Of a DNA stretch of 64,000 bases, positions 6,313-56,241 are shown piece after piece. How positions within the stretch are numbered: the stretch's first letter is position 1; the number at the start of each line of letters is the position of its first letter. The notes below the pieces were generated by a model. It saw only the letters and a list, made by a program, of their open reading frames with translations, was not told the origin of the DNA and searched no databases. This stretch comes from Mesorhizobium sp. WSM3859 (lineage in GTDB: Bacteria > Pseudomonadota > Alphaproteobacteria > Rhizobiales > Rhizobiaceae). A program made the translations under genes and the position numbers. The stretch spans positions 62,001 through 126,000 of the forward strand of contig NZ_NSGG01000008.1 of NCBI RefSeq assembly GCF_002295065.1, read 5' to 3'.

Positions 6313-6452
6313 GGCTGGCCCAGGAAGATCGCGCAGCGGTTTCCTGTTCGGGATTGAGCGCGAGCAATTCGTCGGCTTAGCCGGAGTTCGGCCACAATCC
6401 TGGTCTATTGGGTTATGCTTATGTAATCGAGTTCTTGAGTACTGCGTACCCG

Positions 6453-6480
6453 AACCGCCGGCCTTCGCGCCGGCGGTTTT
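6453..6480 (+). terminator. Rho-independent terminator of recA
   Basis: Perfect 10-bp stem AACCGCCGGC / GCCGGCGGTT with a 6-nt loop, running into four T. About 140 bp after the recA stop. Confidence 0.85.
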
Positions 6481-6526
6481 GCGTTTCGGGGTAGCGCCGC
6501 GTGGCCGGCGGATCGTTTAATTGGTC

Positions 6527-6633
6527 TAAAGCGCGTCGCGATCCTTCGGATTCGCTCCGTGCGCTTTAGGTCTTTGGTTTTACGCATGTCTTCATCCCGA
6601 AACCGGTTCCCACTTTCGGGAGACATGCTTTAA
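6527..6633. repeat. RIME-like two-hairpin repeat, copy A1
   Basis: About 107 bp. First palindrome opens TAAAGCGCG and closes GCGCTTTA; a short TCTTTGGTTTTACG linker follows; second palindrome opens GCATGTC and closes GACATGC around AAACCGGTTCCC. Closely related to 9417-9521 and more distantly to the GCAATTCC copies. No coding potential. Confidence 0.75.
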
Positions 6634-6749
6634 CTCCGTGTTTCTGGACAGGCTCAAGAGCTATCGCTAAAAGGCCCATCTATCTTCTGAAACACCAAGC
6701 CCATCAGCCGCCGGCAACGCCGGCGGTTCTCGTGAAAAGGCAGTATGCA

Positions 6750-9419
6750 ATGAGTGGCGTGAACGACATCCGGTCGACATTCCTCGACTACTTCCGCAAG
6801 GAGGGCCACGAGATCGTCGCCTCCAGCCCGCTGGTGCCGCGCAACGATCCGACACTGATGTTCACCAACGCCGGCATGGTGCAGTTCAAGAACGTCTTCA
6901 CCGGCCTGGAGAAGCGTCCCTATTCGCGGGCGTCTACTGCGCAGAAGAGCGTGCGTGCCGGCGGCAAGCACAACGACCTCGACAATGTCGGCTACACCGC
7001 GCGCCATCTCACCTTCTTCGAGATGCTCGGCAATTTCTCGTTTGGCGACTATTTCAAGGAGCGCGCGATCGAGCTTGCCTGGAACCTGATCACCAAGGGT
7101 TTTGGCCTGAATAAGGACAAGCTGCTCGTTACCGTCTATCACACCGACGACGAGGCGGCGGCTTACTGGAAGAAGATCGCCGGTTTTTCCGACGACCGCA
7201 TCATCCGCATCCCGACCTCGGACAATTTCTGGGCGATGGGCGACACCGGCCCCTGCGGTCCATGCTCGGAAATCTTCATCGACCGCGGCGAGCATATCTG
7301 GGGCGGCCCGCCCGGCAGCCCCGAAGAAGACGGCGACCGGTTCCTGGAATTCTGGAACCTGGTGTTCATGCAGTATGAGCAGGTGACCAAGGAAGAGCGC
7401 ATCGACCTGCCGCGTCCCTCGATCGACACCGGCATGGGCCTGGAGCGCATGGCGTCGATCCTGCAGGGCGTCGACAGCGTCTTCGAGACCGACCTGTTCA
7501 AGCACCTGATCGATGCCGCGTCGTCGGCGCTCGGCCAGGGGCCGAACCAGGAGAACGTCGCGTCCTACCGTGTGATCGCGGATCATCTGCGCTCGTCCTC
7601 CTTCCTGGTGGCCGACGGCGTGCTGCCTTCCAATGAGGGCCGCGGCTATGTGCTGCGCCGCATCATGCGCCGCGCCATGCGCCACGCGCAGCTGCTCGGC
7701 GCAAAGGAGCCCTTGATGTGGCAGCTGGTGCCGGCGCTGGTGCGCGAGATGGGCCAAGCCTATCCCGAGCTGGTGCGCGGCGAAGCGCTGATCACCGAAA
7801 CGCTGAAGCTCGAGGAAACACGCTTCCGCAAGACGTTGGTGCGCGGCCTCGGCCTGCTTTCGGACGCCACCGAGACGCTGCATGCCGGCGACATGCTGGA
7901 CGGCGAGACGGCGTTCAAGCTCTACGACACTTATGGCTTCCCGCTGGACCTGACGCAGGATGCACTGCGCCAGCGCAGCATCTCGGTCGATATCGCGGGT
8001 TTCGCCAACGCGATGGAGCGGCAGAAGGCAGAGGCGCGCGCGCATTGGGCGGGCTCGGGCGAAGCCGCGACCGAGACGGTCTGGTTCTCGGTGCGCGAAA
8101 AGACCGGCGCGACCGAATTCCTCGGCTACGAGACTGAGGCTGCGGAAGGCATCGTCCAGGCGCTGGTCAAGGACGGCAAGACCATCGACAGCGCCGGCCA
8201 GGGCGATGCGGTCGCCGTGGTTGTCAACCAGACGCCGTTCTATGGCGAATCCGGCGGCCAGATGGGCGACACTGGCGTGATCTCGGGTGACGGTTTCTCG
8301 ATCGAGGTTTCCGACACGCAGAAGAAAGCCGACGGTCTGTTCGTTCACATCGGCAAGGTGGCTAAAGGCACGGTGAAGACGGGTGCCGCCGTCGAGCTCA
8401 AGGTCGACCATGCGCGCCGCTCGAAGCTGCGCGCCAACCATTCCGCGACGCACCTCATCCACGAGGCGCTACGCGAGGTGCTGGGCACCCATGTCGCGCA
8501 GAAGGGCTCGCTGGTCGCGCCCGACCGCCTGCGCTTCGACATTTCGCACAACAAGCCCATCTCCGCGGAAGACCTTGAAGAGGTCGAGCGCATGGCGAAC
8601 GAGATCGTCGTGCAGAACAGCCCGGTGACGACGCGGCTGATGTCGGTCGACGACGCGATCGCCGAGGGCGCGATGGCGCTGTTCGGCGAGAAATACGGGG
8701 ACGAGGTGCGTGTCGTGTCAATGGGCACCGGCCTGCATGGCGCCAAGGCCAATCGTCCTTATTCGGTCGAGCTGTGCGGCGGCACCCATGTCAGGTCGAC
8801 CGGCGACATAGGCCTGGTGCGCATTCTGTCGGATAGCGCGGTGGCGGCGGGCGTGCGCCGCATCGAGGCGCTGACGGGCGAGGCTGCCCGCAGGCATCTC
8901 GACGAACAGGACAAGCGCCTGAAGGCCGCGGCGGCGACGTTGAAGATCTCGCCGGCCGATGTGCCGTCGCGCGTCGAAGCGCTGCTCGAAGAGCGCAAGA
9001 AGCTCGAAAAGGAGCTTACCGAGGCGCGCAAGAAGCTGGCGCTGGGCGGCGGCTCGGCCGTTGCCGATGCCCCGGCCGCGAACGAGACGGTCGCCGGCGT
9101 CGGCTTCCTCGGCAAGGCGGTCAGCGGTGTGGCGCCGAAGGACCTGAAGCCGCTTGCCGATGCCGGCAAAAAGACGCTCGGCTCAGGCGTGGTGGTCTTC
9201 GTCGGCGCCGGCGAGGACAACAAGGCAAGCGTGGTCGTCGGCGTCACCAACGACCTGACCGGCCGCTTCAGCGCCGTCGATCTGGTCCGCGTCGCGTCGG
9301 CCGCGCTTGGCGGGCAGGGCGGCGGCGGGCGTCCCGACATGGCGCAGGCCGGCGGCCCAGATGCATCCAAGGCAAACGACGCGATCGCGGCGGTGAAAGC
9401 GGCGCTGGAGGCGGCTTAA
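6750..9419 (+). CDS. alaS: Alanyl-tRNA synthetase
   Basis: 889 residues from ATG 6750 (AAGG 9 nt upstream; an upstream ATG at 6732 adds six residues). Charges tRNA-Ala and edits mischarged Ser/Gly. In order: class II catalytic domain beginning [13 protein letters not shown], with [17 protein letters not shown] and [15 protein letters not shown]; tRNA-recognition region; editing domain with the zinc ligands in NHSATHL and CGGTHV; a coiled region rich in Lys/Glu; and a C-terminal DHHA1-like domain ending in a Gly-rich [16 protein letters not shown] segment. The TAA stop is the first triplet of the repeat at 9417. Confidence 0.98.
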
Positions 9420-10879: not shown

Positions 10880-12091
10880 TCACCCCATGGCCTTCTGCAA
10901 GTTCTCGTCGATCTTGTCGAGGAAGCCGGTCGTCGAGAGCCAGGGCTGGTCGGGGCCGATCAGCAGCGACAGGTCCTTGGTCATGAAGCCGCTCTCGACG
11001 GTCTGGATGCAGACTTTCTCCAGCGTCTCGGCGAAGCGCTTCAGCTCGGCATTGTCGTCCAGCTTGGCGCGGTGGGCGAGGCCGCGCGTCCAGGCGAAGA
11101 TCGAGGCGATCGAATTGGTCGAGGTTTCCTCGCCCTTCTGGTGCTGCCGATAGTGGCGGGTCACGGTGCCGTGGGCGGCTTCCGCCTCCACCGTCTTGCC
11201 GTCCGGCGTCATCAGCACGGAGGTCATCAGGCCGAGCGAACCGAAGCCTTGCGCCACGGTGTCCGACTGCACGTCGCCGTCATAGTTCTTGCAGGCCCAG
11301 ACATAGCCGCCGGACCATTTCAGGCTGGAGGCGACCATGTCGTCGATCAGGCGGTGCTCGTACCAAAGTTTCCGCGCCTTGAACTCAGCCTCGAATTCCT
11401 TCTCGTAGACCTCCTGGAAGATGTCCTTGAAGCGGCCGTCATAGGCCTTGAGGATGGTGTTCTTGGTCGATAGGTAGACCGGGAAATTGCGCAACAGGCC
11501 ATAGTTCAGCGAGGCGCGGGCAAATTCGCGGATCGACTCGTCGAGATTGTACATGGCCATGGCCACGCCGGAGCCCGGCGCATCATAGACCTCGTGCTCG
11601 ATCACCTGGCCGTCCTCGCCGACGAACTTGATCGTCAGCTTGCCCTTGCCGGGGAAGCGGAAATCGGTGGCGCGATACTGGTCGCCGAAGGCGTGACGGC
11701 CGACGACGATCGGTTTGGTCCAGCCCGGCACCAGGCGCGGCACGTTCTTCATGATGATCGGCTCGCGGAAGATGGTGCCGCCGAGGATGTTGCGGATGGT
11801 GCCGTTGGGCGACTTCCACATCTTCTTCAGCTTGAACTCCTCGACGCGCGCCTCGTCGGGGGTGATCGTCGCGCATTTCACGCCGACGCCCCATTTCTTG
11901 ATGGCGTTGGCGGAGTCGATCGTCACCTGGTCGTTGGTGGCGTCGCGGTGCTCGATGCCGAGGTCGTAATATTCAAGCTTCAGGTCGAGATAGGGGTGGA
12001 TCAGCTTGTCCTTGATGAACTGCCAGATGATGCGGGTCATCTCGTCGCCGTCGAGTTCGACGACCGGGTTCGCCACCTTGATCTTCGCCAT
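10880..12091 (-). CDS. icd: Isocitrate dehydrogenase, NADP-dependent
   Basis: 403-residue homodimeric eukaryote-like NADP isocitrate dehydrogenase (class II), not the 416-residue E. coli type. It oxidatively decarboxylates isocitrate to 2-oxoglutarate in the TCA cycle, giving NADPH. Typical segments: [16 protein letters not shown] at the N-terminus, the substrate-binding [19 protein letters not shown], and [16 protein letters not shown] for the cofactor. An ATG at 12091 gives the family's usual start. Divergent from trmJ with about 208 bp between; strong terminator at 10745. Confidence 0.98.
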
Positions 12092-12299
12092 GGAAAGAGT
12101 GCCTCGTTGCTGGGGGATCTGGACGGCCTTGCCCGCATGGTTTCGGCCGGGGATGCGGAGCGTATATCAAAGGCTTTTTCGCCGCGCAAACCACGATCCG
12201 CGCCGGGATGGACGTGTGCCGCTGTTGTGAATGCTTCATTTTCCGGTCCGGATATGGCAGGGGACGCCGAAACGCCGCAAACCCCGGTTACCCACAGCC

Positions 12300-13148
12300 A
12301 TGCCAGTCACCGAAGATAGAGCAAACACTGCCTCCGCCGGACCGGCGATCATCCTGGTCGAGCCGCAGCTCGGCGAGAATATCGGCATGGTTGCGCGCGC
12401 GATGGCGAATTTCGGCCTGTCCGAGCTCAGGCTCGTCAATCCGCGCGACGGCTGGCCGAGCGAGAAGGCGCGCGCGGCAGCCAGCCGCGCCGATCATGTC
12501 ATCGACGCTACCCGCGTCTTCGACGATCTGGCGTCGGCGGTTGCCGATCTCAACTTTGTCTTCGCCACGACGGCGCGCGAGCGTGACGGCTTCAAGCCGG
12601 TGCGCGGGCCGGTGGAAGCGGGCAGGGCGCTCCGGGCGCGCGCCGAGGCCGGACTGCGCACCGGCATCCTGTTCGGCCGCGAGCGCTTCGGCCTCTATAA
12701 TGACGAGGTCGGGCTCGCCGACGAGATCGTCACCTTTCCAGTGGATCCCGGCTTTTCCTCGCTCAACATCGCGCAGGCGGTGCTTTTGATGTCCTATGAG
12801 TGGATGAAGTCCGGCCTCGCCGACGAAACCCAGACCAATTTCTCCGGGCCGGAGCTGGCGCCGGCGACCAAGGAGCAGCTGCACAGCCTGTTCGCCTATC
12901 TCGAGAACGCGCTGGAAGCACGAGGCTACTTCCGCCCGGAAGAGAAGAAACCGAAGATGGTCGACAATCTGCGCGCCGTGCTGACGCGTGCGGGCTTCGC
13001 CGAACCCGAGCTCAAGGTTCTACGCGGCATCATCTCGTCCCTGGACAGGTTCTCGCCGGCCATGCCACGCGGCGACGGCTCGCCGGGAGACGATCCGAGA
13101 CGGTTGCCGGCGGGTGCGCGCAGTCGTGCCAAAGACGAAGAAAGTTAA
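12300..13148 (+). CDS. trmJ: tRNA/rRNA 2'-O-methyltransferase TrmJ-like (SpoU family)
   Basis: 282 residues. N-terminal SPOUT knot: IILVEPQLGENIGMVARAM is motif 1, then LFGRERFGLYNDEV (motif 2) and PGFSSLNIAQAV (motif 3), the AdoMet-binding trefoil. These match TrmJ, which methylates the ribose at tRNA position 32. The C-terminal extension beyond about residue 165 is the helical tail of TrmJ-type proteins. The ATG at 12300 fits the family; no strong ribosome binding site is seen. Interestingly position 32 is also the target of ttcA (17937). Target specificity inferred by family only. Confidence 0.88.
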   Translation: MPVTEDRANTASAGPAIILVEPQLGENIGMVARAMANFGLSELRLVNPRDGWPSEKARAAASRADHVIDATRVFDDLASAVADLNFVFATTARERDGFKPVRGPVEAGRALRARAEAGLRTGILFGRERFGLYNDEVGLADEIVTFPVDPGFSSLNIAQAVLLMSYEWMKSGLADETQTNFSGPELAPATKEQLHSLFAYLENALEARGYFRPEEKKPKMVDNLRAVLTRAGFAEPELKVLRGIISSLDRFSPAMPRGDGSPGDDPRRLPAGARSRAKDEES

Positions 13149-13229
13149 AATCGATAAGCTGTGAGCATTTGAAGTAACCGAATTTTATTCGGTTGTGCCT
13201 CATCCTTGCTGCAATAATGGGGGTGGCAC

Positions 13230-13829
13230 ATGTTTGCGTCCAATATTGGTCGACTGCGCTTTTTCCTTTACTCTCTCGGTCTCGCCGTCGCCGAAACCGT
13301 GGTGATCGTTGTCTGCATTGTCGGTACAATCGGTTTTGAGGGACTGATCAATTCGGGACCTGGCCCGGCGCGTCAGGGCATGGCAGGCGCGGTTCTGATC
13401 GCCTCGCTTATCTTTGTCGCCTTGCGCGGCAACATCGCCTCGCGCCGCGTCCGCGACGCCAACGGGCGCCGCTGGATCCTGTGGGCCTACATCGCCCTTT
13501 CCGCCGTCTACGCCCTTTTGCAGGCGGGCGTGCTGCTTGTCGTCAAGTTCGGCGATCCCGATAGCATTCCGGGCGGGCTGAACCTGCTCGGACTTTCGAT
13601 ATTCGGCCTCTGGTGCACAATCCTGTGGGCGAAACCCGTCGCGGGCAGCAACATCGACGAGTTGACGGATGTGTTCGACTTCGACGGTCCGCTGCCGGCA
13701 TCGACGCGCACTGCACGCACCGCCGCGCCGGCCGCTCCACGCGCCGCGGTCTCATCCGCACGCGTTCCGCCCGCGCCGCAGCCCTTCGGCAGGCCGCGCC
13801 CTGCAGGCTTCGGCAAGCGCGGCATATGA
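13230..13829 (+). CDS. Small integral membrane protein, Pro/Ala-rich tail
   Basis: 199 residues, family not recognised with certainty (DUF805-like at best). Four hydrophobic segments are visible at about 11-37, 50-65, 82-107 and 118-133, followed by a 65-residue tail very rich in Ala, Pro and Arg that should lie in the cytoplasm or periplasm as a disordered region. Preceded by an 8-bp hairpin (13176-13194) after trmJ. No catalytic motif seen and no functional partner suggested by the neighbours. Confidence 0.7.
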   Translation: MFASNIGRLRFFLYSLGLAVAETVVIVVCIVGTIGFEGLINSGPGPARQGMAGAVLIASLIFVALRGNIASRRVRDANGRRWILWAYIALSAVYALLQAGVLLVVKFGDPDSIPGGLNLLGLSIFGLWCTILWAKPVAGSNIDELTDVFDFDGPLPASTRTARTAAPAAPRAAVSSARVPPAPQPFGRPRPAGFGKRGI

Positions 13830-13897
13830 GCGAGCCTACGAAACAGCTGCGCAAAAGCTGCTCGCATTCGCCTCTTCAAGACCACGATCATTCGCGA

Positions 13898-13995
13898 TAG
13901 AAGCGCCTGCGGTCCAATCACGGACCTGCCGCCTCTCTTTGTTTTGACGCAATTCCGGACGGAAAACCGTTTCACACTTTTCCTGGAATTGCTCT
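13898..13995. repeat. RIME-like two-hairpin repeat, copy B1
   Basis: First palindrome starting TAGAAGCGCC is degenerate; linker CTCTCTTTGTTTTGAC; second palindrome GCAATTCC ... GGAATTGC encloses GGACGGAAAACCG. Its last CTCT abuts the first possible murI start codons. Confidence 0.7.
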
Positions 13996-14009
13996 ATGAC
14001 CGGATGACA

Positions 14010-14810
14010 ATGAGCGATCGATCAAGCCAGCGCCCGATCCTGATATTCGATTCCGGTGTCGGTGGCCTGACCGTGCTGCGCGAGGCGCGCGTGCTGATGC
14101 CCGACCGCCGCTTCGTCTATGTCGCCGACGACGCGGCTTTTCCTTATGGCGCCTGGGAAGAGCCGGCGCTCAAGGACCATATCCTCACGCTGTTCGGCAA
14201 ATTGCTCGACCGGCTGCAGCCGGCGATTTCGGTCATTGCCTGCAACACAGCCTCGACTCTGGTGATCGATGCGCTGCGCGACAAATTCCCCGGACATCCC
14301 TTTGTCGGCACCGTGCCGGCGATCAAGCCGGCCGCCGAACGCACGCGCTCCGGCCTCGTCTCCGTGCTGGCGACTCCGGGCACGGTGAAGCGTCAGTACA
14401 CGCGCGACCTGATCAGCAAATGGGCGCAGAAATGCCATGTCCGCCTGGTCGGCAGTGACCGGCTGGCGGGGCTCGCCGAGATCTATATGCGCCAGGGTTT
14501 CGTCGACGAGGAAGCGGTGCGCGCCGAGATCGCCCCCTGTTTCCTCGAACGCGAGGGCAATCGCACCGACATCGTCGTGCTTGCCTGCACGCATTATCCG
14601 TTTCTGGTCAACCGCATGCGCAAGACCGCCCCCTGGCCGGTCGACTGGATCGATCCCGCCGAGGCGATCGCACGGCGCGCCATGTCGCTGCTCGAACCGG
14701 TCGGAGAAACATCCAGCGAGAGCGAGCCCGATCTCGCCGTCTTCACCTCGGGCATGGTGGATTTCGCAACGAGGCGGCTGATCCAGGGGTTTGGACTTAC
14801 TGCACCTTAG
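14010..14810 (+). CDS. murI: Glutamate racemase
   Basis: 266 residues. Interconverts L- and D-glutamate, supplying D-Glu for peptidoglycan. Both catalytic cysteines are present: C78 in VIACNTAST and C193 in VLACTHYPF; the N-terminal [11 protein letters not shown] loop is typical. ATG 14010 is chosen because GGA lies 5 nt upstream; ATG 14004 in the same frame is an alternative. The gene begins almost at the border of the upstream repeat, so its promoter must lie in or before that repeat. Convergent with the RNB nuclease, stops 3 bp apart. Confidence 0.96.
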
Positions 14811-47164: not shown

Positions 47165-48232
47165 ATGCATAAACGCCGCCTCGGTCGGACCGACCTCCTT
47201 GTTTCGCAAATCTGCCTCGGCTCGATGACCTGGGGTCAGCAGAACACCGAAGCGGAGGGCCACGCGCAGATGGATCTGGCGTTCTCACGCGGCGTGAATT
47301 TCATCGACACCGCGGAGCTTTACCCGATCCCGCCCAAGGCGGAGACGCAAGGGCGGACCGAGAAGACCATCGGCAGCTGGATGAAGGCCAATCGCAACCG
47401 CGACAAGGTCATCCTTGCCTCTAAGGTGGTCGGCCGCACGGCCAACACATGGTTTCGCGGCGATCGTCCGTCGAAGCTGGTGCGCGCCGACATTTTCGAC
47501 GCGGTCGAGAAATCGCTGGCCAAGCTCGGCACCGATTATATCGACCTCTACCAGATCCACTGGCCGGACCGGGACATTCCGTGGGGCTCGAATCCGACGC
47601 GCGTCGGGGCGGTGGCGCGCCGGCCCGACGCCGCGGGCACGCCCGACGACGAGACGCCGATAGCCGAAACGCTCGCCGTTTTCGAGGAACTGGTGAAAGC
47701 CGGAAAGATCCGCCATCTCGGCCTCTCTAACGAAAGCTCCTGGGGCGTCATGCGCTTCGTCTTCGAAGCCGAAAAGGGCGCGGGTCCGCGCGTCGCCTCG
47801 CTGCAGAACGCCTATAACCTCGTCAACCGGACCTTCGAAGTGAACCTTGCCGAAGTCTGCGAGCGCGAGCAGATCGCGTTCCTTCCCTATTCGCCGCTAG
47901 CCCAGGGCTATCTCACCGGCAAATACGATCATGGCGCGCGGCCGCAGGGTTCGCGCTCGCAGCTCTTCAACCGCGGTCAGCGCTACGAGACGCCGAATGC
48001 GGCGGAAGTGCTGCTTCAATACAATGAGCTGGCGCGCTCGTTCGGCATGGAGCCGGCGCTTTTCGCCAATGCCTATGTGACAAGCCGGCGCTTCGTCACC
48101 GCGAACATCGTCGGCGCGACCACGACAGCGCAGCTCGAGACGGCGCTGTCCTCGGCCGACATCATCTGGACGGAAGAGATGCAGAAGGCAGTCGACGCCA
48201 TCCACCAGTGCGTCGGCAATCCGTGTCCGTGA
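47165..48232 (+). CDS. Aldo/keto reductase, Tas-like
   Basis: 355 residues. AKR TIM barrel: catalytic Asp and Tyr in FIDTAELY, Lys in LASKVV, His in YQIHWPD; C-terminal VGATTTAQLETALSS is the NADPH site. The KRRLGRTDLLVSQICLGSMTWG opening and the ELYPIPPKAETQG insert match the Tas/YgdS subgroup. ATG 47165 has GGAG 8 nt upstream. Reduces aldehydes or ketones with NADPH; true substrate unknown. Confidence 0.9.
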   Translation: MHKRRLGRTDLLVSQICLGSMTWGQQNTEAEGHAQMDLAFSRGVNFIDTAELYPIPPKAETQGRTEKTIGSWMKANRNRDKVILASKVVGRTANTWFRGDRPSKLVRADIFDAVEKSLAKLGTDYIDLYQIHWPDRDIPWGSNPTRVGAVARRPDAAGTPDDETPIAETLAVFEELVKAGKIRHLGLSNESSWGVMRFVFEAEKGAGPRVASLQNAYNLVNRTFEVNLAEVCEREQIAFLPYSPLAQGYLTGKYDHGARPQGSRSQLFNRGQRYETPNAAEVLLQYNELARSFGMEPALFANAYVTSRRFVTANIVGATTTAQLETALSSADIIWTEEMQKAVDAIHQCVGNPCP

Positions 48233-48267
48233 GCGAGAATCGATTGAAAAACAAAAGGGTGGAGAGG

Positions 48268-49536
48268 ATGGCAGAGTTTCCGATCGAGGCCGTGCGCGGC
48301 AGATTTCCGGCGCTTTCGCTGACCGATAAAGGGCGCCGGCGCATCTATCTCGACAATCCGGCCGGCACGCAGGTGCCGCAGGCCGTGGCGGATGCGGTGT
48401 CGCGCTGCCTGCTCTCGACCAACGCCAATCTCGGCGGCTTCTTCGAAACGACGGTCGCGGCGCAGCAGGTGGTCGATGGGGCGCATGCCGCGATGGCCGA
48501 TTTCCTCAACGCCGCCAGCCCCGAGGAGATCGTCATCGGCGCCAATATGACGACGCTGACCTACCACATGTCGCGGACGCTTGGCCGCATGATGACGCCG
48601 GGCGACGAGATCATCGTCACGCGCATGGATCACGAGAGCAATGTCTCGCCCTGGCTGCAGCTCGCCGAGGATCTTGGCCTGGTCGTGCGCTTCCTGCCGT
48701 TCGACGAGCGGAGCTGGCAGGTGGAGGAGGCAGCGCTGAAGGCGCTGCTTTCGGACAAGACGCGGCTCGTGGCGTTGAACTATGCCTCGAACCTCACCGG
48801 CTCGATCAATCGTGTGCAGGCCCTGACCGCAATCGCCAGGCAGGCCGGCGCGCTGGTCTATGTCGACGCCGTGCAGTTCGCGCCGCACGGACTGATCGAC
48901 GTGCAGGCGCTCGGCTGCGATTTCCTGATCTGCTCGGCCTATAAATTCTTCGGGCCGCATATGGGCATATTGTGGGGGCGCCGCGACGTCATCGACGGCC
49001 TTAAACCTTACAAATGCCGCTGTTCGTCGAACGGGCTGCCGGAGCGGTTCGAGCTCGGCACGCCGCAGATCGAGCTGATGGCCGGGCTGACAGCGGCCAT
49101 CGACTATTTCGCCGATCTCGGCGCGGCCGCCGGCGAGGGCGGGTTGCGGCGGCAGCTGATTGCCAAGGCTTTCGACGTGTCGATCGCTTACGAGAATAGG
49201 CTTGCCCGGCAATTAATCGAAGGCCTTTCCGATATCGAGGGCCTGGTCATCCGCGGCATCACCGATCCGCAACGCCTCGCCGAGCGGGTACCAACCGTTT
49301 CCTTCACCGTCGTGGGCATCGCGCCGGAAACGATCGTGCGGCAGATGAACGCCGAAAACATCTTCCTGTGGTCGGGCCATAATTATGCGTGGGAGATCGT
49401 CCACCAGCTCGGCATACCGGCCGAGCAGGGCGTCGTGCGCATCGGCATTGCCCACTACAACACGGCAGCCGAGATCGAGGAGACGCTGGAGAGCGTCCAC
49501 CGCGTGATCGCGATGCTTAGGCAGCAGCGACCTTGA
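48268..49536 (+). CDS. Cysteine desulfurase-like PLP enzyme (no catalytic Cys)
   Basis: 422 residues. Class V aminotransferase of the cysteine-desulfurase-like group (VC1184-type, TIGR01976). PLP-binding Lys in SAYKFFGPHMG; phosphate site ANMTTLTYH; YVDAVQFAPHG is the Asp/His region. The loop that carries the persulfide Cys in SufS (GHHCAQ) reads GHNYAW here with Tyr373, so it should not desulfurate like SufS. Probably a Cys-independent lyase or aminotransferase. ATG 48268 follows GGTGGAGAGG. 35 bp after the AKR gene. Confidence 0.85.
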   Translation: MAEFPIEAVRGRFPALSLTDKGRRRIYLDNPAGTQVPQAVADAVSRCLLSTNANLGGFFETTVAAQQVVDGAHAAMADFLNAASPEEIVIGANMTTLTYHMSRTLGRMMTPGDEIIVTRMDHESNVSPWLQLAEDLGLVVRFLPFDERSWQVEEAALKALLSDKTRLVALNYASNLTGSINRVQALTAIARQAGALVYVDAVQFAPHGLIDVQALGCDFLICSAYKFFGPHMGILWGRRDVIDGLKPYKCRCSSNGLPERFELGTPQIELMAGLTAAIDYFADLGAAAGEGGLRRQLIAKAFDVSIAYENRLARQLIEGLSDIEGLVIRGITDPQRLAERVPTVSFTVVGIAPETIVRQMNAENIFLWSGHNYAWEIVHQLGIPAEQGVVRIGIAHYNTAAEIEETLESVHRVIAMLRQQRP

Positions 49537-49537
49537 G

Positions 49538-50566
49538 TTAGCGCTGCTTACCGCCGAAGCCGGTCAGGAACGCGGTGAGGTTGTCGCCGAGCGCATCGCA
49601 GAGATAGCCGCCTTCCTGGACGATGACGGTCGGCAGTCCCAGCCCAGCAATCGCTTCGCCGATGCGCGAGAAGCCTGGGGTCGTCACCGACAGGCCGCCG
49701 AACGGATCGCCCTCGAAAGCGTCGAGGCCGAGCGCCACTACAAGCGCCTCTGGCGCGAAGGCTTGGATGCGCTGGAAAGCCGTCGCCAGCGCTTCGAGGA
49801 AGGCCGCGTCGCCTGATTTGCGCGGCAGCGGCAGGTTGAGATTGTAGCCGAGACCGGGGCCTTCGCCGCGTTCGTCGGCATAGCCCCAGAAGAAGGGATA
49901 GAAGCGCACCGGATCGGCGTGCAGCGAGACGGTCAGCACGTCGGGGCGGGCGTAGAAGATGCCTTGCGTGCCGTTGCCGTGATGCAGGTCGACATCGAGG
50001 ATGGCGACACGGGCGGCGCTTTTCCGGAGCACCTGCGCCGCGACCGCTGAATTGTTGATGAAGCAGAAGCCGCCGGCGACATCGGCGAAGGCATGGTGGC
50101 CGGGCGGCCGGCAGAGCGCATAGGCCGAAGGCGCGCCGGCCATCACCGCTTCAGCGGCTTCAACCGCGCTCCAGGCGCTCCACTGCGCGCTCTCCCAGGT
50201 TTCGGCCGAGATCGGGCAGGCGGTGTCGGCCATGTGGTAGCCTGCCTGGCCGACCGCCGAGGCCGGATAGGAGCCGTTGCGGGCGATCGGGTGGATGTTC
50301 GGAATGACTTCCGCCGAAGCGCCTTCGATGCGCTGCCAGCGCGAAAAGATGTGCTCGAGGAAGTCGAGATATTCAGGCGTATGCACCGCCGCGATCGGGC
50401 CAAGCCCATGATTGCTCGGACGTTCGACCGTCAAGCCGGCCGATCTTGCGCCGGATAACAATCTCTCGATCCGCTCCGGCTTTTCCGGGTTGGGCTGCGG
50501 CGCGCCGCTGGAGAGAAAAGCCTTGGGATCGTGGCGTTTCTGCTCCTCGGCATAGAAGGCTTTCAT
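49538..50566 (-). CDS. Histone deacetylase-like amidohydrolase
   Basis: 342 residues of the HDAC/acetylpolyamine amidohydrolase superfamily (zinc). Visible: CRPPGHHA, VAILDVDLHHGNGTQ (metal-binding D-x-H), LHADPVRFYPFF, GLDAFEGDPFG and the terminal IVQEGGYL. In bacteria such enzymes deacetylate polyamines or similar N-acetyl amines. ATG 50566 has GGAGG 8 nt upstream and overlaps the stop of the GNAT gene (ATGA). Last gene of the five-gene minus operon. Confidence 0.9.
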   Translation of the reverse strand: MKAFYAEEQKRHDPKAFLSSGAPQPNPEKPERIERLLSGARSAGLTVERPSNHGLGPIAAVHTPEYLDFLEHIFSRWQRIEGASAEVIPNIHPIARNGSYPASAVGQAGYHMADTACPISAETWESAQWSAWSAVEAAEAVMAGAPSAYALCRPPGHHAFADVAGGFCFINNSAVAAQVLRKSAARVAILDVDLHHGNGTQGIFYARPDVLTVSLHADPVRFYPFFWGYADERGEGPGLGYNLNLPLPRKSGDAAFLEALATAFQRIQAFAPEALVVALGLDAFEGDPFGGLSVTTPGFSRIGEAIAGLGLPTVIVQEGGYLCDALGDNLTAFLTGFGGKQR

Positions 50567-51072
50567 CGTCGTTCCTCCGGCGCGTCGGCAAAGGCGAAGA
50601 AGGCGTCGCCGACGATCTTGTGCACCTGTTCGTAACTCGACCAGCCGATGCCCAGTCTCTCGTAGAAGGCCTTGGCCGTCTCGTTGTCGGTGTCGACGGA
50701 CAGCCTCAGATAAACGCCGCCCGCCGCGCGGCATTCCTTCGCGACGCGCCGCAGCAGCCTTTCGCCGATCCGGCGGCCGCGAAAACGGTCCTCGACATAA
50801 AGGTCCTGCACATAGACGCCGGGACGGCCCATCCAGGTCGAGAAGATCGGGAAATGCAGGCAAAGGCCGGCGAACTCGCCGCCGACCTCGGCGATGAGCG
50901 TCGAGAAGGCGGGTTTGTCGCCAAAGCCGTAGCGACGCAGATCGTCGGCGGTGGATTTGATCTCCTGGTGGGCGCCGATATGGGTGCTGAGGCGGAGTAG
51001 AGCGGCGTAGATCACTTCGACGTCGTCGATGGTGCCGGGGCGGAGCAGAATGTCGGTGGCCTGCTGCCGCAT
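50563..51072 (-). CDS. GNAT family N-acetyltransferase
   Basis: 169 residues. GNAT fold with the acetyl-CoA loop DRFRGRRIGERLLRRVAKE (RxxGxxR-like) around residue 100, then TDNETAKAFYERLGI. Resembles diamine/spermidine acetyltransferase-like members (PGVYVQDLYVED). Its stop overlaps the HDAC start; 2 bp separate it from the upstream DUF523 stop. Having an acetyltransferase next to a deacetylase suggests an acetylated amine intermediate. Substrate unknown. Confidence 0.88.
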   Translation of the reverse strand: MRQQATDILLRPGTIDDVEVIYAALLRLSTHIGAHQEIKSTADDLRRYGFGDKPAFSTLIAEVGGEFAGLCLHFPIFSTWMGRPGVYVQDLYVEDRFRGRRIGERLLRRVAKECRAAGGVYLRLSVDTDNETAKAFYERLGIGWSSYEQVHKIVGDAFFAFADAPEERR

Positions 51073-51074
51073 GG

Positions 51075-51584
51075 TCAGTCCGCATGTCCGGCGGCATTGG
51101 AGCCGGTCAACACATCGTCAAGCTCGCCGATCCTGTCTTCGGAAAAGACACGGATACCGTTTTCCTCGAGCAGCGCGGTGGTCGTGCCTTGGCCAGCCAC
51201 GCGGGCCCCTGAAAAGCTCCCGTCATAAATGAAGTTGCTGCCACAGGACGGGCTGCCATCCGTCAATACGGCATAGCGGCATCCGGTTTCCCGGGCGAGG
51301 TCGAGCGCCAGTTGCCCGGCTTCGCGGTAAAGGTGGGTGACATCGCTGCCGGTTTGCTCGATCACTCTGCCATGGCCCTGCAGGACCGCATGGCCGTCGC
51401 CCGCGCTCTGGATTTCCGCCGGCGGACGCGGCGTCGAAAAACCGGCCGCAACCTCTGGACAGATCTGCACGATCCGGCCTTCCGACTGCCACCGCGCCAG
51501 TACGGGATGGTGGTCGAGCCGAAACGAGCCGTTGTAGCGCACCTTGCTGCCGAGCAGGCAGGCCGAGACAAGCACTCTCTCCAT
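51075..51584 (-). CDS. DUF523 domain protein
   Basis: 169 residues. DUF523/YbbK: VLVSACLLGSKVRYNGS, QICPEVAAGFSTPRPPAEI and AVLTDGSPSCGSNFIYDG carry conserved Cys residues typical of the family (C9, C42, C114). Function unknown; a thiol or metal role is guessed from the cysteines. In the operon: 24 bp after the aminotransferase stop and 2 bp before the GNAT gene. Confidence 0.88.
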   Translation of the reverse strand: MERVLVSACLLGSKVRYNGSFRLDHHPVLARWQSEGRIVQICPEVAAGFSTPRPPAEIQSAGDGHAVLQGHGRVIEQTGSDVTHLYREAGQLALDLARETGCRYAVLTDGSPSCGSNFIYDGSFSGARVAGQGTTTALLEENGIRVFSEDRIGELDDVLTGSNAAGHAD

Positions 51585-51608
51585 ATCGGCTCCTCCCTTG
51601 GCGAGGGC

Positions 51609-52976
51609 TCAGTGATTGACCGGCAGGTCAAGTTCGGCGGCAAGTGCCTCCAGCGTATCGCCAAGTACCGCGATAATCTCGCCAATCTGTTCGCGGGTTG
51701 TGATCAAAGGCGGGCAGACCATGAAATTATCACTCACCGGCCCGCCGCGCACGCGCCGCGAGTAGATGATGAGTCCACGCTCGAAGGCCAGATCGATGAG
51801 CCGCAAATTGGCGTTGAGATTCTGTGGCAATGGCGTCCTGGCCAAGGGGTCGGCGTAGAGCTCCGCGCCCATGAACAGCCCCTTGCCCCGCACGTCGGCA
51901 ATGAAAGGAAAGCGACCCGCCAGCGCTTCGAGTTCGCCCCTCAGCACTTCGCCCATGACGGCGGAATTCTCGACCAGGCCAAGGCGGTCGACCTCGCCGA
52001 GAACGGCAACGCCGGCCGCGCAGGCGACAGGATTGCCGCCATAGGTGTGGCCATGCAGGAAGCCGCCAGCCGCAACGACCGGCCCGACGATCCTCTCTGT
52101 CGCGGCAAGCGCCCCCAAGGGCGCATAGCCGGAACTCAACCCCTTCGACAGCGCGACGATATCCGGCCGGCAGCTCCAATGGTCGCCGCCCAGGAACCTG
52201 CCTGTGCGTCCGATGCCGGTCATCACCTCGTCGTGGATCAGCAGGATGCCGTAGCGGTCGCAGATCTCGCGGATCCGGGCAAAATAGCTGTCGGGCGGCA
52301 CCAGCGCGGCGGTCGCCGCGCCGCCGATCGGCTCCATGATGAAAGCCAAAACGCTTTCGGGCCCTTGCTCCAGGATTTTTTCCTCAAGCATATCAGCGTA
52401 GCGGATGCCGCGCTCTTGCAGCGACAGATTATCTTGGTCGCGATGAACAAACGGGGTCGGCACCAACGGCATCGGCCGTCCGATCGAGTCGAATGGCTTG
52501 GTCAGGACATCGTCGCCGGTGACGGCGAGCGTGCCGAGCGTGACGCCGTGATAGGAGGGCATGCGACCTATTATTTTCCAGCGCTTGTCCTGGCCAGTCG
52601 CGACCGCCCATTGGCGCGCGAGCTTGAGGCAGGCCTCGACCGCCTCGGAACCGCCGGAAACGAGATAAATGCGTTCGAGCCCGTTCGGAAGCCGATCGGC
52701 AAGCTCCCGCGCCAGCGTGACGGCCTGTTCGTTCTCGAATTGAAAGATGTAGGCGAAGCTGACGCGGTCGAGCTGCCGCTTCATCGCATCGATGACGTTG
52801 CGATTGCCGTGACCGACATTGACATTGACCGCGCCGCTCGATCCATCGATGTAGCGGCGGCCGCTCTTGTCCCACAGATAGATGCCGTCGGCGCGATCCA
52901 CCATCGGCCGGGGCCGGCGTGTGAAGTGGAAAAGGTTCGGCCGGCTGACGGTTTCGATGGACTGCGCAGTGCTCAT
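51609..52976 (-). CDS. Class-III PLP aminotransferase
   Basis: 455 residues. Omega-aminotransferase-type: SSGAVNVNVGHGN near the start, LVSGGSEAVEACLKLARQW (phosphate cup), LLIHDEVMTGIGRTGRFLG (D ligand) and PLP lysine in VALSKGLSSGYAPLGA. Probably transfers an amino group between an amine or omega-amino acid and a 2-oxo acid. Starts within the stop of the DMFase-like gene (ATGA), so coupled. Second gene of the five-gene operon. Confidence 0.92.
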   Translation of the reverse strand: MSTAQSIETVSRPNLFHFTRRPRPMVDRADGIYLWDKSGRRYIDGSSGAVNVNVGHGNRNVIDAMKRQLDRVSFAYIFQFENEQAVTLARELADRLPNGLERIYLVSGGSEAVEACLKLARQWAVATGQDKRWKIIGRMPSYHGVTLGTLAVTGDDVLTKPFDSIGRPMPLVPTPFVHRDQDNLSLQERGIRYADMLEEKILEQGPESVLAFIMEPIGGAATAALVPPDSYFARIREICDRYGILLIHDEVMTGIGRTGRFLGGDHWSCRPDIVALSKGLSSGYAPLGALAATERIVGPVVAAGGFLHGHTYGGNPVACAAGVAVLGEVDRLGLVENSAVMGEVLRGELEALAGRFPFIADVRGKGLFMGAELYADPLARTPLPQNLNANLRLIDLAFERGLIIYSRRVRGGPVSDNFMVCPPLITTREQIGEIIAVLGDTLEALAAELDLPVNH

Positions 52977-54625
52977 TCGCCCCTCTCGTCTCGGCCGAGA
53001 TAGCGGTCGAGAACATTTTTGGTCACGCGTTCGACCATCGCGTCCTGCCTTAGCAGGCCGGCGACCCATTCGCAGCTTCCGGCATGGAACACTTCGCCCT
53101 TGCCGCGCGGGAAATTGACGATCATGCCGTTGCCGCGCTTGACCTTGTCGAGATTTGCGTCGCTAGGCTCGCCGAACAAGGTCTCGGCGGTGAAGCGACC
53201 GTCCTCGTCGGTGAGGAACTGGTCCTCGATCGGGATGTCGGCGCTTTCCTCAACCTGGCTTGCCATGCCGACGGCCAACACCTGCAGGCCGTCCGGCGCG
53301 CCGCTCTCCGCAGTCGGGTAGGGCAGGCCGCCGCGTATCTCGAAATCGAGGCCGTCGACCTCATAGCCGTAGACATGGCTGTCGGCGCCGAGCAGGTCGC
53401 CGTAGTAGATGCCGGTGCCGGCGAAGGCCCAGTGCTCGGGGCGGTAGACCGGGAAGCCGCGCACGCCGCGCGGCGCGCAGCCGCCCCAGCCGGCATAGAC
53501 GCCTCGCGTCGCATTGAGGCCGAAGGTGGCGCTGCCCGGACGTCCGATCTCGGGCGCTTCCCAGGAATTGGTGGCGCGGGTGACGTCACCGGCGCGATAG
53601 GTCGGGTCTTGTGCGCGCGCCTTGTATTTGTAGCAGACCTGGCGGCGGCCTTCGTCCTCCAGCCTCGTCTGCCACATGAAATTGCCGGCGAAGCGCGCCG
53701 CATGTCCGCCGCGCTCGACATAGTTGTCGACGGCGTCGCGCATCTCCCAGGTCCAGTATTCATCGTGCCCGACGAAGACGACGCAGTCGTAACCGTCGAG
53801 GATTTCGGGCGAGAAATGGAGCTCGTGCTGGCTGGCGAGATCGACCTGGTAGCCGGCGCGTTCGGCGAAGCGGAAGAAGTGACTGTCATAGCTCGCCCAG
53901 CCGGAGGAGGCATATTTCTTCGAATGTCCGGTGGCGAAGGCCCATTCCATATGCGGATAGCGCGGCACGGTTTTCGGCGGCACCGCGACTTCGAGCGGCA
54001 CGCGGGGCGCGTTCTTGGGCAGCACGACGAAGCCGCGGCACCAGGGACGCTGCGTAGACACCATCGTCGCGTACTGATCGCGGTTCGGGCCGGTGATGCC
54101 TTGATAGTGGTTCGAGCCGCCCCAGGTGTTGTAGGCAAGCCAGGTGCCGGTCGCGGCCACCTGCAGCAGACGGCCGGGTTTCTTGCCGGGCAGGGGCGCG
54201 ACGATGAAGAGATGGTGGCTGCGGATCGGATTGCCGTCACGGCCTTCGGCCGAGAGCGCGATGCGATAGGCGCCCGACCGCCAGTCGTCGCCGACACGGA
54301 ATTCGAACGAAGCTTCCCAGCCGCAGCCGTCGACCGAGCATTGGTCGGGCGTGTCCTGCCAGCGCGCCGGCAGGCCCGATCCCTCGAAGACCTTGGTTTC
54401 GCCGTCGCCGTCGCGGATGACGGCAAGGCTGAAGTGCGGCGCCGACGAACTGACGAAAAGCGTGACTATCTCGCCCGGACGATAGGAAAACCGGTCGCTG
54501 TAGCCCCAAATCTCACCGCGCTCACCATCCATCCCCGGCCATTCGTAATAATGGCCGCGTACCGCCTCGCGGCGCTGCTCGGGCGTCAGCCCGAAATCGG
54601 GAAATTCGGTGGGCAATTGCGTCAA
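52973..54625 (-). CDS. N,N-dimethylformamidase large-subunit-like protein
   Basis: 550 residues. Matches the N,N-dimethylformamidase beta-subunit family: an N-terminal beta-rich part (FSYRPGEIVTLFVSSSAPHFS), then VVFVGHDEYWTWEMRDAVDNY typical of the glutamine-amidotransferase-like core, and a C-terminal tail. No small alpha subunit gene adjacent. First gene of the five-gene operon; likely hydrolyses an N-alkyl amide, but iron-ligand residues cannot be mapped confidently here. Divergent from the ParB-N gene. Confidence 0.85.
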   Translation of the reverse strand: MTQLPTEFPDFGLTPEQRREAVRGHYYEWPGMDGERGEIWGYSDRFSYRPGEIVTLFVSSSAPHFSLAVIRDGDGETKVFEGSGLPARWQDTPDQCSVDGCGWEASFEFRVGDDWRSGAYRIALSAEGRDGNPIRSHHLFIVAPLPGKKPGRLLQVAATGTWLAYNTWGGSNHYQGITGPNRDQYATMVSTQRPWCRGFVVLPKNAPRVPLEVAVPPKTVPRYPHMEWAFATGHSKKYASSGWASYDSHFFRFAERAGYQVDLASQHELHFSPEILDGYDCVVFVGHDEYWTWEMRDAVDNYVERGGHAARFAGNFMWQTRLEDEGRRQVCYKYKARAQDPTYRAGDVTRATNSWEAPEIGRPGSATFGLNATRGVYAGWGGCAPRGVRGFPVYRPEHWAFAGTGIYYGDLLGADSHVYGYEVDGLDFEIRGGLPYPTAESGAPDGLQVLAVGMASQVEESADIPIEDQFLTDEDGRFTAETLFGEPSDANLDKVKRGNGMIVNFPRGKGEVFHAGSCEWVAGLLRQDAMVERVTKNVLDRYLGRDERGE

Positions 54626-54772: not shown

Positions 54773-55021
54773 ATGCTGCGTGTGCAAAAGGTCAAGGTCG
54801 ACGACATCTACGTGCCGACGGCGCGCCGCAAGACACTGCATCCCGAAACCGTGCGCCATCTTGCCGAGGATATTCTCGAGAACGGCATGAAGACGCCGAT
54901 CCAGGTGCGGCACGACGGCAAACGCCACATCCTGGTCGAGGGGCTGCACCGGCTCGAAGCCGCCAAATGGCTGGGAGAGACCATGATCGACGCCTATCTC
55001 GTCCAGGCCAAGCGCCATTGA
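54773..55021 (+). CDS. Stand-alone ParB N-terminal domain protein
   Basis: 82 residues. A ParB/Srx (sulfiredoxin-like) N-terminal domain alone: VDDIYVPTARRK, ETVRHLAEDILENGMKTPIQV and ILVEGLHRLEAAKWLGE, the nucleotide-binding GxxRxxA-like region with H replacing R in GLHR. No helix-turn-helix follows, so not a partition ParB. ATG 54773 has AGGAG 6 nt upstream. Role unknown; CTP or ATP binding is possible. Confidence 0.8.
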   Translation: MLRVQKVKVDDIYVPTARRKTLHPETVRHLAEDILENGMKTPIQVRHDGKRHILVEGLHRLEAAKWLGETMIDAYLVQAKRH

Positions 55022-55022
55022 T

Positions 55023-56057
55023 TCAAGAGGCCTTGGCCCGTCGCGGCTGGCGCAGATGCCTGACGCCGCTCATTTCGACGAATTTCGTCGCCGTGTCCCA
55101 GAGATAGTCGCCATAAAGGAACGGCTCGAAGGGCTCGGCGCCCTTGAGCGACAGCGGCGCGATCTCGGCGTCGACGCGCGGCTCATAGAAGAACGGGATC
55201 GAGAAGCGCGCCTGTTTGGGCGCGATCACCCGATGCCTGGTCGCCCGCACCCTGCCGGCGGTCCAGCGCTCCAGCAACTGGCCGAAATTGACGGCGAGCG
55301 TGTTGTCTGCCGGCGGCACGTCGATCCACTCACCGGCAAGGTTTTTTGCCTGCAGGCCTTCGACACCGTCCTGCGCCAGCAGGGTGACGAAACCGGAATC
55401 GGCATGCTCGCGGCCGATGATGGTCCGCATCTCGCCCTTGTGAATCACGGAGAAGTCGGGGCCGCTGAGGTCGACGCCGCCGTTCGGGTCACGCAGCGGG
55501 TAGCGGATCAGGCGCAATGTCGAGATGCCGCCTTCGAAATCCTTATCGAAAATGGTCTCGGTCAGCCCAAGGCCGCGCGCGACCGAGCGCAGCAGCGCGT
55601 TGCCGACCGTCTCCATCGCCTTGTAGTAGCCGGCGGCAGCCTGGCGCCAGCCGGGTAGGGCGCTTTCCGGCGGGAGCGGCGTGACCTCGCAGAGAGGATC
55701 GCCGGCATCAAGCCCTGAGGGCGCGGCGCCCGCCTCGGCGATGTCCGGCCCCATGTCGATGCCTTCCTTATAAGAGACCGCGCCCGGCTGCAGCGGAAAC
55801 CAGCCGCGATAGACATTTTGTTTGGTGCGGTCGAAATTCCAGCGCAGCAGCTTCTGCTTTTCAGCCTCGGGCAGCGAAAAGATCGCCAGCAGCCGCGCCC
55901 GGTTCCGCGGCGTCAGCCAATCGTCGCCGGGAAAGTCGCGGATCGCCATGAAGCCGATGCCCGACGCCGCGGCCATGATCCTCGAGTCGGTCTGGTCGCG
56001 GGCAGGCGAGGGCGGACCGAACAAGGGTGCAATCGCGATCGTGTCGATGTCGGCCAT
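55023..56057 (-). CDS. 2OG-Fe(II) oxygenase, isopenicillin N synthase-like
   Basis: 344 residues. Fe(II)/2-oxoglutarate dioxygenase of the IPNS/ACC oxidase family: HxD in GREHADSGFVTLL, distal His in RVRATRHRVIAP and the Arg-x-Ser in RFSIPFFYEP that binds the oxoacid. N-terminal DIDTIAIAPLF and ALLRSVARGLGL are usual. Hydroxylates or desaturates an unknown small molecule. Convergent with ParB-N, 1 bp apart; divergent from the GFA gene. ATG 56057. Confidence 0.9.
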   Translation of the reverse strand: MADIDTIAIAPLFGPPSPARDQTDSRIMAAASGIGFMAIRDFPGDDWLTPRNRARLLAIFSLPEAEKQKLLRWNFDRTKQNVYRGWFPLQPGAVSYKEGIDMGPDIAEAGAAPSGLDAGDPLCEVTPLPPESALPGWRQAAAGYYKAMETVGNALLRSVARGLGLTETIFDKDFEGGISTLRLIRYPLRDPNGGVDLSGPDFSVIHKGEMRTIIGREHADSGFVTLLAQDGVEGLQAKNLAGEWIDVPPADNTLAVNFGQLLERWTAGRVRATRHRVIAPKQARFSIPFFYEPRVDAEIAPLSLKGAEPFEPFLYGDYLWDTATKFVEMSGVRHLRQPRRAKAS

Positions 56058-56241
56058 CAATCTTCCTCCCGTCGGACGCTGCAAGCAGGGCGCAGCGGCC
56101 GGCGATTGTCAATCGCGGGCGAGGACACGTCATTCGGCCACCCGTATCAGCGCTGGCGATCGTATCCCATCAATGTTTTTTGTTTGACCCAGTCAGGCCG
56201 GCCACTACCTTGCCGACATTTCTTCGAAACGGGTGTCGGCG

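Follow-up and report, generated by a model that had tools for sequence, protein, structure and literature searches.

We analysed a window of 64,000 nucleotides from Mesorhizobium sp. WSM3859 (contig NZ_NSGG01000008.1, positions 62,001 to 126,000; host genome 6.6 Mb), which carries an operon-like group of five genes for an amidohydrolase related to DMFase, a class-III aminotransferase, a DUF523 protein, a GNAT acetyltransferase and a deacetylase of the histone deacetylase (HDAC) fold. In window coordinates and in the order of reading, the genes and the gap of interest are:

52973-54625, minus strand: DMFase-like gene (DMFA), 550 residues, TTG start, PF20254 (DMFA2_C) at 1.4e-69
51609-52976, minus strand: class-III aminotransferase (AT3), divergent allele A, 455 residues, PF00202 (Aminotran_3) at 5.3e-88
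51585-51608, minus strand: gap of 24 bp between AT3 and DUF523, in relatives the site of a gene for a beta-keto-acid cleavage enzyme (BKACE) of about 309 residues, absent here
51075-51584, minus strand: DUF523 (TudS-like) gene, 169 residues, PF04463 at 8.8e-41
50563-51072, minus strand: GNAT acetyltransferase, 169 residues, PF00583 at 2.6e-15
49538-50566, minus strand: HDAC-fold zinc deacetylase, acetylpolyamine-hydrolase-like (APAH-like), 342 residues, PF00850 (Hist_deacetyl) at 6.9e-77

These coordinates confirm the five minus-strand genes with ATGA overlaps and gaps of 2-24 bp described in an initial annotation made from the sequence. The overlaps join DMFA to AT3 (52976-52973) and GNAT to the deacetylase (50566-50563), and the gaps separate AT3 from DUF523 (24 bp, 51608-51585) and DUF523 from GNAT (2 bp, 51074-51073). 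Judged from this spacing, the five genes are probably read as a single transcript. No repeats of at least 10 bases were found at the two gap regions.

The DMFase-like gene or relatives of it are carried by all 72 same-genus genomes searched. Loci around AT3 were fetched from 66 of these (G007, G014, G019, G024, G039 and G067 are left out of the counts), giving with the window 67 Mesorhizobium-type loci; those of G029 and G055 end at contig ends, and the absence of GNAT and deacetylase there is uninformative. The same-strand neighbours of AT3 include DMFA in 65 loci, GNAT in 63 and the deacetylase in 64, and all three lie beside it in 62. Scattering in most relatives, which the initial annotation had named as the check on its operon, is thus not what we found for four of the five genes: they form a conserved co-directional operon, and their clustering is not due to chance. 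The fifth gene, DUF523, occurs in 11 of the 67 loci.

The BKACE gene lies near AT3 in 47 of the 67 loci, between AT3 and GNAT or DUF523, and is identified by PF05853 (1e-107 for the copy at 6350-7279, minus strand, of locus L064). We made no assignment of the operon BKACE to a published substrate group, as PMC4922564, in the part available, lists the groups and gives no applicable residue key. The exact gene set of the window, with DUF523 and without BKACE, is found in four of the 67 loci (the window's own genome, G000, and G035, G031 and G047). The nearest BKACE paralogue in the window's genome (61%) lies on a different contig (C31), and no pathway genes linked to it were seen by eye (locus L219). 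A block made of a 4HBT thioesterase, a LysR gene and a polar-amino-acid ABC transporter is also found near AT3 (18-20 of the 67 loci, depending on the gene), with all four markers in 17 loci. The window holds a shortened, genus-specific version of a widespread alphaproteobacterial operon, and BKACE has been lost in its lineage. In one relative (G016; L054, 5886-9451) the operon AT3 matches over 307 of 455 residues and lies 1.6 kb from GNAT; this copy may be broken.

The wider distribution was studied by scanning one genome per species with the AT3 alignment. The best 80 of at least 580 relatives (the named loci) include 67 that are not titled Mesorhizobium and that belong, by title, mostly to other Alphaproteobacteria. 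Two cassettes accompany AT3 in these loci. Cassette 1 combines BKACE with the APAH-like deacetylase and often includes GNAT; cassette 2 pairs CoA-transferase subunits A and B with an M20 deacylase of ArgE/DapE type, and a thiolase is often present (nine loci). We found BKACE in 49 of the 80 loci, CoA-transferase in 14 and both in none; the 17 loci with neither were scored within 6 kb of AT3 and some are short contigs. The APAH-like deacetylase is present in 57 loci and the M20 deacylase in 15, with both in one locus and neither in nine. The enzymes also occur in pairs, BKACE with the APAH-like deacetylase (47/49) and CoA-transferase with the M20 deacylase (13/14).

When the cassette type is traced on the AT3 tree (63 classifiable loci; a single FastTree tree with a midpoint root), it switches four times or more; with shuffled labels the mean is 12.9. 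The exclusion is not due to one split, yet it is clustered by descent; shared ancestry inflates the Fisher p-values for it, and the four tree changes are the safer number. Because the type changes this often, the two cassettes look like functional equivalents. BKACE and the CoA-transferase with thiolase have a common job, the conversion of a beta-keto acid to an acyl-CoA, and the APAH-like and M20 enzymes have another, the removal of an acyl group from an amine. Interchangeable cassettes with such paired jobs are the main argument for a beta-keto-acid pathway. A LysR gene lies around AT3 in 48 of the 80 loci, and sets that include a transporter, LysR and a thioesterase are found in Ensifer (L164 and L200), in Brucella tritici (L180) and on a Shinella plasmid, which carries them with AT3, BKACE, GNAT and the deacetylase. 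On a Sinorhizobium medicae plasmid DMFA accompanies cassette 2.

The aminotransferase of the window differs in its descent from the genes around it. In a tree of AT3 from 66 of the 67 loci (the G016 copy fell below the length filter), the window AT3 groups with its counterparts from nine other genomes in a single clade (allele A; support 1.0), and does so in this tree alone. The smallest splits that hold the allele-A genomes add 35 other genomes for DMFA, 44 for the deacetylase and 26 for BKACE (supports 0.76, 0.77 and 0.87; the BKACE tree holds six of the ten). Between the window's genome and G044, for example, identity is 67% for AT3, 96% for DMFA and 95% for the deacetylase. The trees indicate that in 10 of the 66 genomes, the window's included, a divergent allele has supplanted AT3, and AT3 alone, at its original site. 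Judged by identity, allele A would be the derived one, because the AT3 of Ensifer and of Brucella tritici is closer to the other allele (about 75%) than to allele A (66-67%). At 13 positions allele A departs from a residue shared by at least 90% of the 56 other AT3 sequences and by at least 80% of 64 sequences from the named loci. These include Y17H, M50V and V51N, and we take them, from other class-III transaminases, to face the substrate. Allele A is not strictly tied to the loss of BKACE, which six of the ten genomes retain. Elsewhere in the window's genome (L220, 8880-12872, contig C12) a second class-III aminotransferase adjoins a distant BKACE-like gene (Kce model, 127.5 bits, below cut-off), and an RpiR-type regulator and an amino-acid transporter were seen by eye in the same region.

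L-beta-lysine degradation was reportedly described biochemically in Pseudomonas B4 by the Barker laboratory, about 1979-81. The route comprises an N6-acetyltransferase, an N6-acetyl-beta-lysine transaminase, a CoA-dependent cleavage of 3-keto-6-acetamidohexanoate, a thioesterase and a 4-acetamidobutyrate deacetylase; cleavage with acetyl-CoA yields 4-acetamidobutyryl-CoA and acetoacetate, and deacetylation yields gamma-aminobutyrate (GABA). We know of no gene for this Pseudomonas route, and to our knowledge N6-acetyl-beta-lysine transaminase (EC 2.6.1.65) and 4-acetamidobutyrate deacetylase (EC 3.5.1.63) are orphan activities. In the open-access literature we found no paper on the degradation of L-beta-lysine by Pseudomonas and saw nothing on this operon.

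For the operon family we propose the following steps. DMFA, as an accessory enzyme, would hydrolyse an amide or N-acyl conjugate to the free amino acid. GNAT would acetylate, and so mask, the distal amine, such that later intermediates could not cyclise, and AT3 would transaminate the beta-amine to give a beta-keto acid (3-keto-6-acetamidohexanoate if the substrate is beta-lysine). With acetyl-CoA, BKACE would convert the latter to acetoacetate and an acyl-CoA (4-acetamidobutyryl-CoA), a step for which other lineages may use the CoA-transferase and thiolase. The thioesterase would then release the free acid, from which the HDAC-fold enzyme would remove the acetyl group, turning 4-acetamidobutyrate into GABA. 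In the lineage of the window, which lacks the operon BKACE, the 61% paralogue may serve, or the substrate may have shifted along with the replaced aminotransferase. In a Nitratireductor metagenome-assembled genome (L140) a GABA transaminase gene (PRK07495, 796 bits against a cut-off of 724) lies downstream of the deacetylase; it scores above two NCBIfam cut-offs and starts 41 bp past the deacetylase at its first possible start, or about 0.1 kb past it by the family match.

Gene content, linkage, cassette exclusion and pocket residues are observations, from which we infer every reaction, the order of the reactions and the substrate. The general route, from an N-acyl beta-amino acid through a beta-keto acid to an acyl-CoA, is probably right. 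That the operon family serves the breakdown of a beta-amino acid with a second amine, L-beta-lysine or its N6-acetyl form being the likeliest, stands near an even chance, and the choice of beta-lysine as the substrate is tentative. We regard as speculative the fullest form of this proposal, in which the operon family would be the gene-level counterpart of aerobic beta-lysine catabolism with acetyl as a protecting group, AT3 the N6-acetyl-beta-lysine transaminase and the HDAC-fold enzyme the 4-acetamidobutyrate deacetylase, and in which the AT3 swap and partial BKACE loss in Mesorhizobium would retune the pathway to another beta-amino acid. The initial annotation had pointed to the pairing of an acetyltransferase with a deacetylase in an uncharacterised, catabolic-looking operon, and this is borne out. 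Of its pathway, in which an amide is opened, the amine acetylated or deacetylated and the product transaminated, the idea of one catabolic-looking operon stands, but the scheme misses the beta-keto-acid cleavage by BKACE, the most characteristic step of the route.

Several observations weigh against our assignment. BKACE is absent from the operon of the window and from 19 other loci of the 67, and the window operon also lacks the thioesterase, the transporter and LysR. The operon BKACE is named by NCBIfam, above cut-off, a 3,5-dioxohexanoate enzyme. The GNAT of the window stays below every NCBIfam cut-off, and its 21 listed matches include no model of a beta-lysine acetyltransferase; in the named loci GNAT was found in 50 and not found in 30 of 80, with 43 of the 57 APAH-type and 4 of the 14 CoA-transferase-type loci carrying it. 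The best NCBIfam matches of AT3 are PRK07483 (416 bits) and PRK06917 (406 bits), both below cut-off. We take PRK06917 and PRK06915, which the M20 deacylase of cassette 2 matches at 324 bits, to be the families of Bacillus yodT and yodQ, and to that extent these matches favour our assignment; but PRK06917 also gives 408 bits with a second aminotransferase of the window's genome, and the M20 deacylase fits PRK06837 better (621 bits). The binding proteins of the transporters are of polyamine type (potD-type) in 27 of the 80 loci and of amino-acid type in 20, and the linkage of a GABA transaminase was seen once in 80. The scheme does not account for the DAO, RidA, alanine racemase (alr) and DgcA/DgcN-like neighbours of some loci. 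Finally, two members of the lysine 2,3-aminomutase family, used as queries, gave no match in any of the 80 neighbourhoods; of the 80 host genomes 47 were searched, and the family passed its cut-off in 8. The aminomutase is thus not supported as a local source of substrate, and beta-lysine would need to be imported.

Some of these points would be met by the same chemistry acting on another substrate, which we consider unlikely: 3,5-diaminohexanoate, 3,5-diaminopentanoate, an N-acyl beta-amino acid without a second amine or, where DAO, RidA or the racemase are present, a compound derived from a D-amino acid. It would accommodate the accessory genes, which vary by lineage (DAO in 18, RidA in 11 and alr in 7 of the 80 loci) and include the DgcA/DgcN-like genes of L163 with their counterparts in L201, as well as the loci in which GNAT was not found. 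Yet GNAT and a deacetylase in one operon are hard to explain without a second amine, and the GABA transaminase of L140, if a single case, points to a four-carbon product. The DgcA- and DgcN-like genes of L163 (7122-9180) lie after the deacetylase and score below the NCBIfam cut-offs; ORFs of the same clusters are found in L201 (10963-11994). The DgcA/DgcN pair presumably belongs to the use of D-glutamate.

Breakdown of acetylpolyamines is a different and rather improbable reading, in which GNAT would acetylate a polyamine, AT3 would be a polyamine transaminase and the HDAC-like enzyme a true acetylpolyamine amidohydrolase. The best PDB matches of the deacetylase do bear the name acetylpolyamine hydrolase (3men at 6.7e-105; 3q9b, full-length, at 2.8e-82), AT3 matches the polyamine:pyruvate transaminase 9j4z (5.8e-69), and the potD-type binding proteins mentioned above would fit as well. 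But we know of no place in polyamine breakdown for BKACE or for a CoA-transferase with thiolase, and the pocket of the deacetylase argues for another substrate. The window enzyme retains the zinc ligands, the His pair and the Tyr, and differs from 3q9b by E17 to F17, E106 to V105, E117 to A116 and E223 to R221. We compared 57 deacetylase sequences, i.e., that of the window and 56 from 55 named loci, which are mutually related and do not represent 57 independent events. The catalytic set is conserved (3q9b numbering: H158, H159, H197 and D284 in 57/57, D195 and Y323 in 56/57), whereas E17 is replaced by F or Y in all 57, position 106 is non-acidic in 56, E117 is replaced by A or S in 57 and E223 by Arg in 56. 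The PIS motif of acetylpolyamine hydrolases is mostly P-F-x in the operon enzymes. We assume pocket roles for Glu17 and Glu117 and a tunnel role for Phe225; position 223 would belong to the pocket from its place two residues before Phe225.

The solved enzymes 3q9b, 9gkz and 6phr all have E17, with E/H/D at position 106, E/G/D at 117 and E/F/L at 223, and the other, unlinked APAH of the same genome (L002) has E17, D106, G117 and V223. In 3men, the closest solved relative, the four positions are Y, L, S and N. Two aspects of this comparison temper our conclusion: only position 17 separates the solved polyamine hydrolases from the operon enzymes, the other three positions being variable, and 3men, itself named an acetylpolyamine hydrolase, shows that the loss of acids at 17, 106 and 117 extends beyond the operon enzymes. 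Nor is the loss of Glu106 decisive. This residue forms a salt bridge with the polyamine in the M. ramosa enzyme (3q9b), and such enzymes have a negative active site; still, PsApaH deacetylates polyamines with His106 (PMC11532494, in the part available). PMC4784309 yielded none of the residue names looked for. Two points appear firm: E17 is lost, and position 223 carries an almost invariant Arg that none of the enzymes compared above has; the remaining positions weigh little. We conclude that the deacetylase probably does not hydrolyse acetylpolyamines, and the simple reading of the Arg would be a substrate that bears a carboxylate.

DMFA has a less central place in the beta-amino acid pathway that we favour. 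Its AlphaFold model (pTM 0.75, mean pLDDT 64.9) is poor at residues 160-177 and 195-245. In a fold search the nine best matches, all of them chains of N-acetyl-(R)-beta-phenylalanine acylase or DMFase, had E values between 1.5e-17 and 2.6e-15, TM scores of 0.44-0.56 (normalised by query length) and rmsd of 7.9-9.8; the tenth followed at 1.5e-5. That an acylase of N-acyl beta-amino acids is among them counts in favour of the proposed pathway. By this model DMFA is of the same fold family as these enzymes, loosely superposed on them. The DMFase site is a 2-Tyr-1-carboxylate iron (Y399, Y440 and E521) with the catalytic His H519 (PMC7686228, in the part available). DMFase residues Y399, H519 and E521 align with Y165, H287 and E289 of DMFA, which are among 302 positions at least 97% conserved in 71 sequences; the second Tyr ligand, Y440, falls outside the aligned stretches, where the model is poor. 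There is no gene for a DMFase small subunit among the five operon genes, and no genome search was made for one. DMFA is an accessory and is dispensable for the module, because it is present in 6 of the 67 loci outside Mesorhizobium. A catabolism of N-alkyl amides of the dimethylformamide type, with DMFA opening the amide before acetylation and transamination, is highly doubtful, for although DMFA retains the three DMFase residues (PMC7686228, in the part available) and is found in 65 of the 67 genus loci, it is rare in the modules outside the genus, does not lie between the transporter and AT3 in Shinella or next to AT3 on a Phyllobacterium plasmid, also occurs, in plasmid gene tables that are incomplete, with no such aminotransferase listed, and leaves the beta-keto-acid enzymes unexplained.

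In six of the named loci (L146, L148, L159, L162, L169 and L183) an ORF beside the transporter permeases resembles creatininase. We take it to be an amidohydrolase of the creatininase family, possibly an amide hydrolase in the place of DMFA. On a Roseomonas marmotae plasmid (L227, 8965-15570) a related aminotransferase is followed by a binding protein, a longer DMFase-like gene (11961-14141), a metal-dependent hydrolase and GNAT, a setting that differs from that of the module. A role in ectoine transport was rejected for the L039 transporter, which scores below the cut-offs of the EhuA, EhuB and EhuC models.

The initial annotation treated DUF523 as an unknown protein and as a member of equal rank, and neither view held. 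Beside its PF04463 match, the protein matches TudS (PDB 6z92) at 1.3e-35 over residues 2-160 of 169, with three Cys aligned, which presumably are cluster ligands as in TudS. It belongs to the 2-thiouracil desulfurase family of Pfam, and its presence in 11 of the 67 genus loci and in 0 of the 67 outside Mesorhizobium suggests a variable passenger of the operon and led us to reject it as a core enzyme.

Three further genes surround the operon:

48208-49536, plus strand: cysteine-desulfurase-like gene, TIGR01976, 601 bits against a cut-off of 352
54773-55021, plus strand: small ParB_N-like ORF, PF02195 at 9.3e-6, 26.0 bits, just below the cut-off of 26.3
55023-56084, minus strand: 2-oxoglutarate (2OG) oxygenase, 0.4 kb upstream of the operon

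The cysteine-desulfurase-like gene is convergent with the operon, 1 bp from the stop of the deacetylase, and marks the downstream boundary; it is found near the operon on the opposite strand in 60 of the 67 Mesorhizobium-type loci. The ParB_N-like ORF is similarly placed in 65 of the 67, including 17 loci in which more than 4 kb, with the thioesterase/LysR/transporter block, separate it from DMFA. This ORF is the upstream boundary of the operon and sets the 2OG oxygenase apart. The initial annotation had noted the oxygenase 0.4 kb beyond the operon, which is correct, but we place it outside because the plus-strand ORF lies between; it is near the operon in just 30 of the 67 loci.

If the beta-amino acid pathway is right, it would provide genes for a route known to us as chemistry alone, would show a histone-deacetylase-fold enzyme at work in unmasking a small molecule, and would assign a function to the genes annotated as 'histone deacetylase family protein' beside AT3 in soil and marine Alphaproteobacteria. 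The two mutually exclusive cassette pairs, and the exchange of the aminotransferase within an otherwise differently inherited operon, amount to a natural experiment, and assays of a few small enzymes could address the question of the substrate directly.

The reaction families match those reported for the route of Pseudomonas B4; the window lacks genes for the cleavage enzyme and the thioesterase, and the pathway is proposed here from genes. The kamA-yodPQRST cluster of Bacillus subtilis, which we take to encode a GNAT, an M20 deacylase, CoA-transferase subunits and a class-III aminotransferase, resembles cassette 2 of the Alphaproteobacteria. It differs in that kamA has no match in the 80 neighbourhoods and in that operons of the window type use BKACE and an HDAC-fold deacetylase. 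In B. subtilis, kamA (BSU19690) and yodT (BSU19740) have close locus tags and are both SigE-dependent (PMC6522883, in the part available), a parallel that we count in favour of the assignment. The deacetylase shares its fold and catalytic residues with the acetylpolyamine amidohydrolases of M. ramosa (3q9b) and P. aeruginosa (6phr) and with 9gkz, and differs by F/Y at 17, Arg at 223 and a PIS motif that is mostly P-F-x. DMFA has the common catalytic-domain fold and three active-site residues of the DMFase large subunit (6lvb) and of N-acetyl-(R)-beta-phenylalanine acylase (8i5a, 8huy), but it is shorter (550 residues against 723-776) and its sequence match is weak (3.7e-11 at best). DUF523 matches TudS (6z92) over nearly its whole length, with the three Cys aligned, and is here the gene of a passenger.

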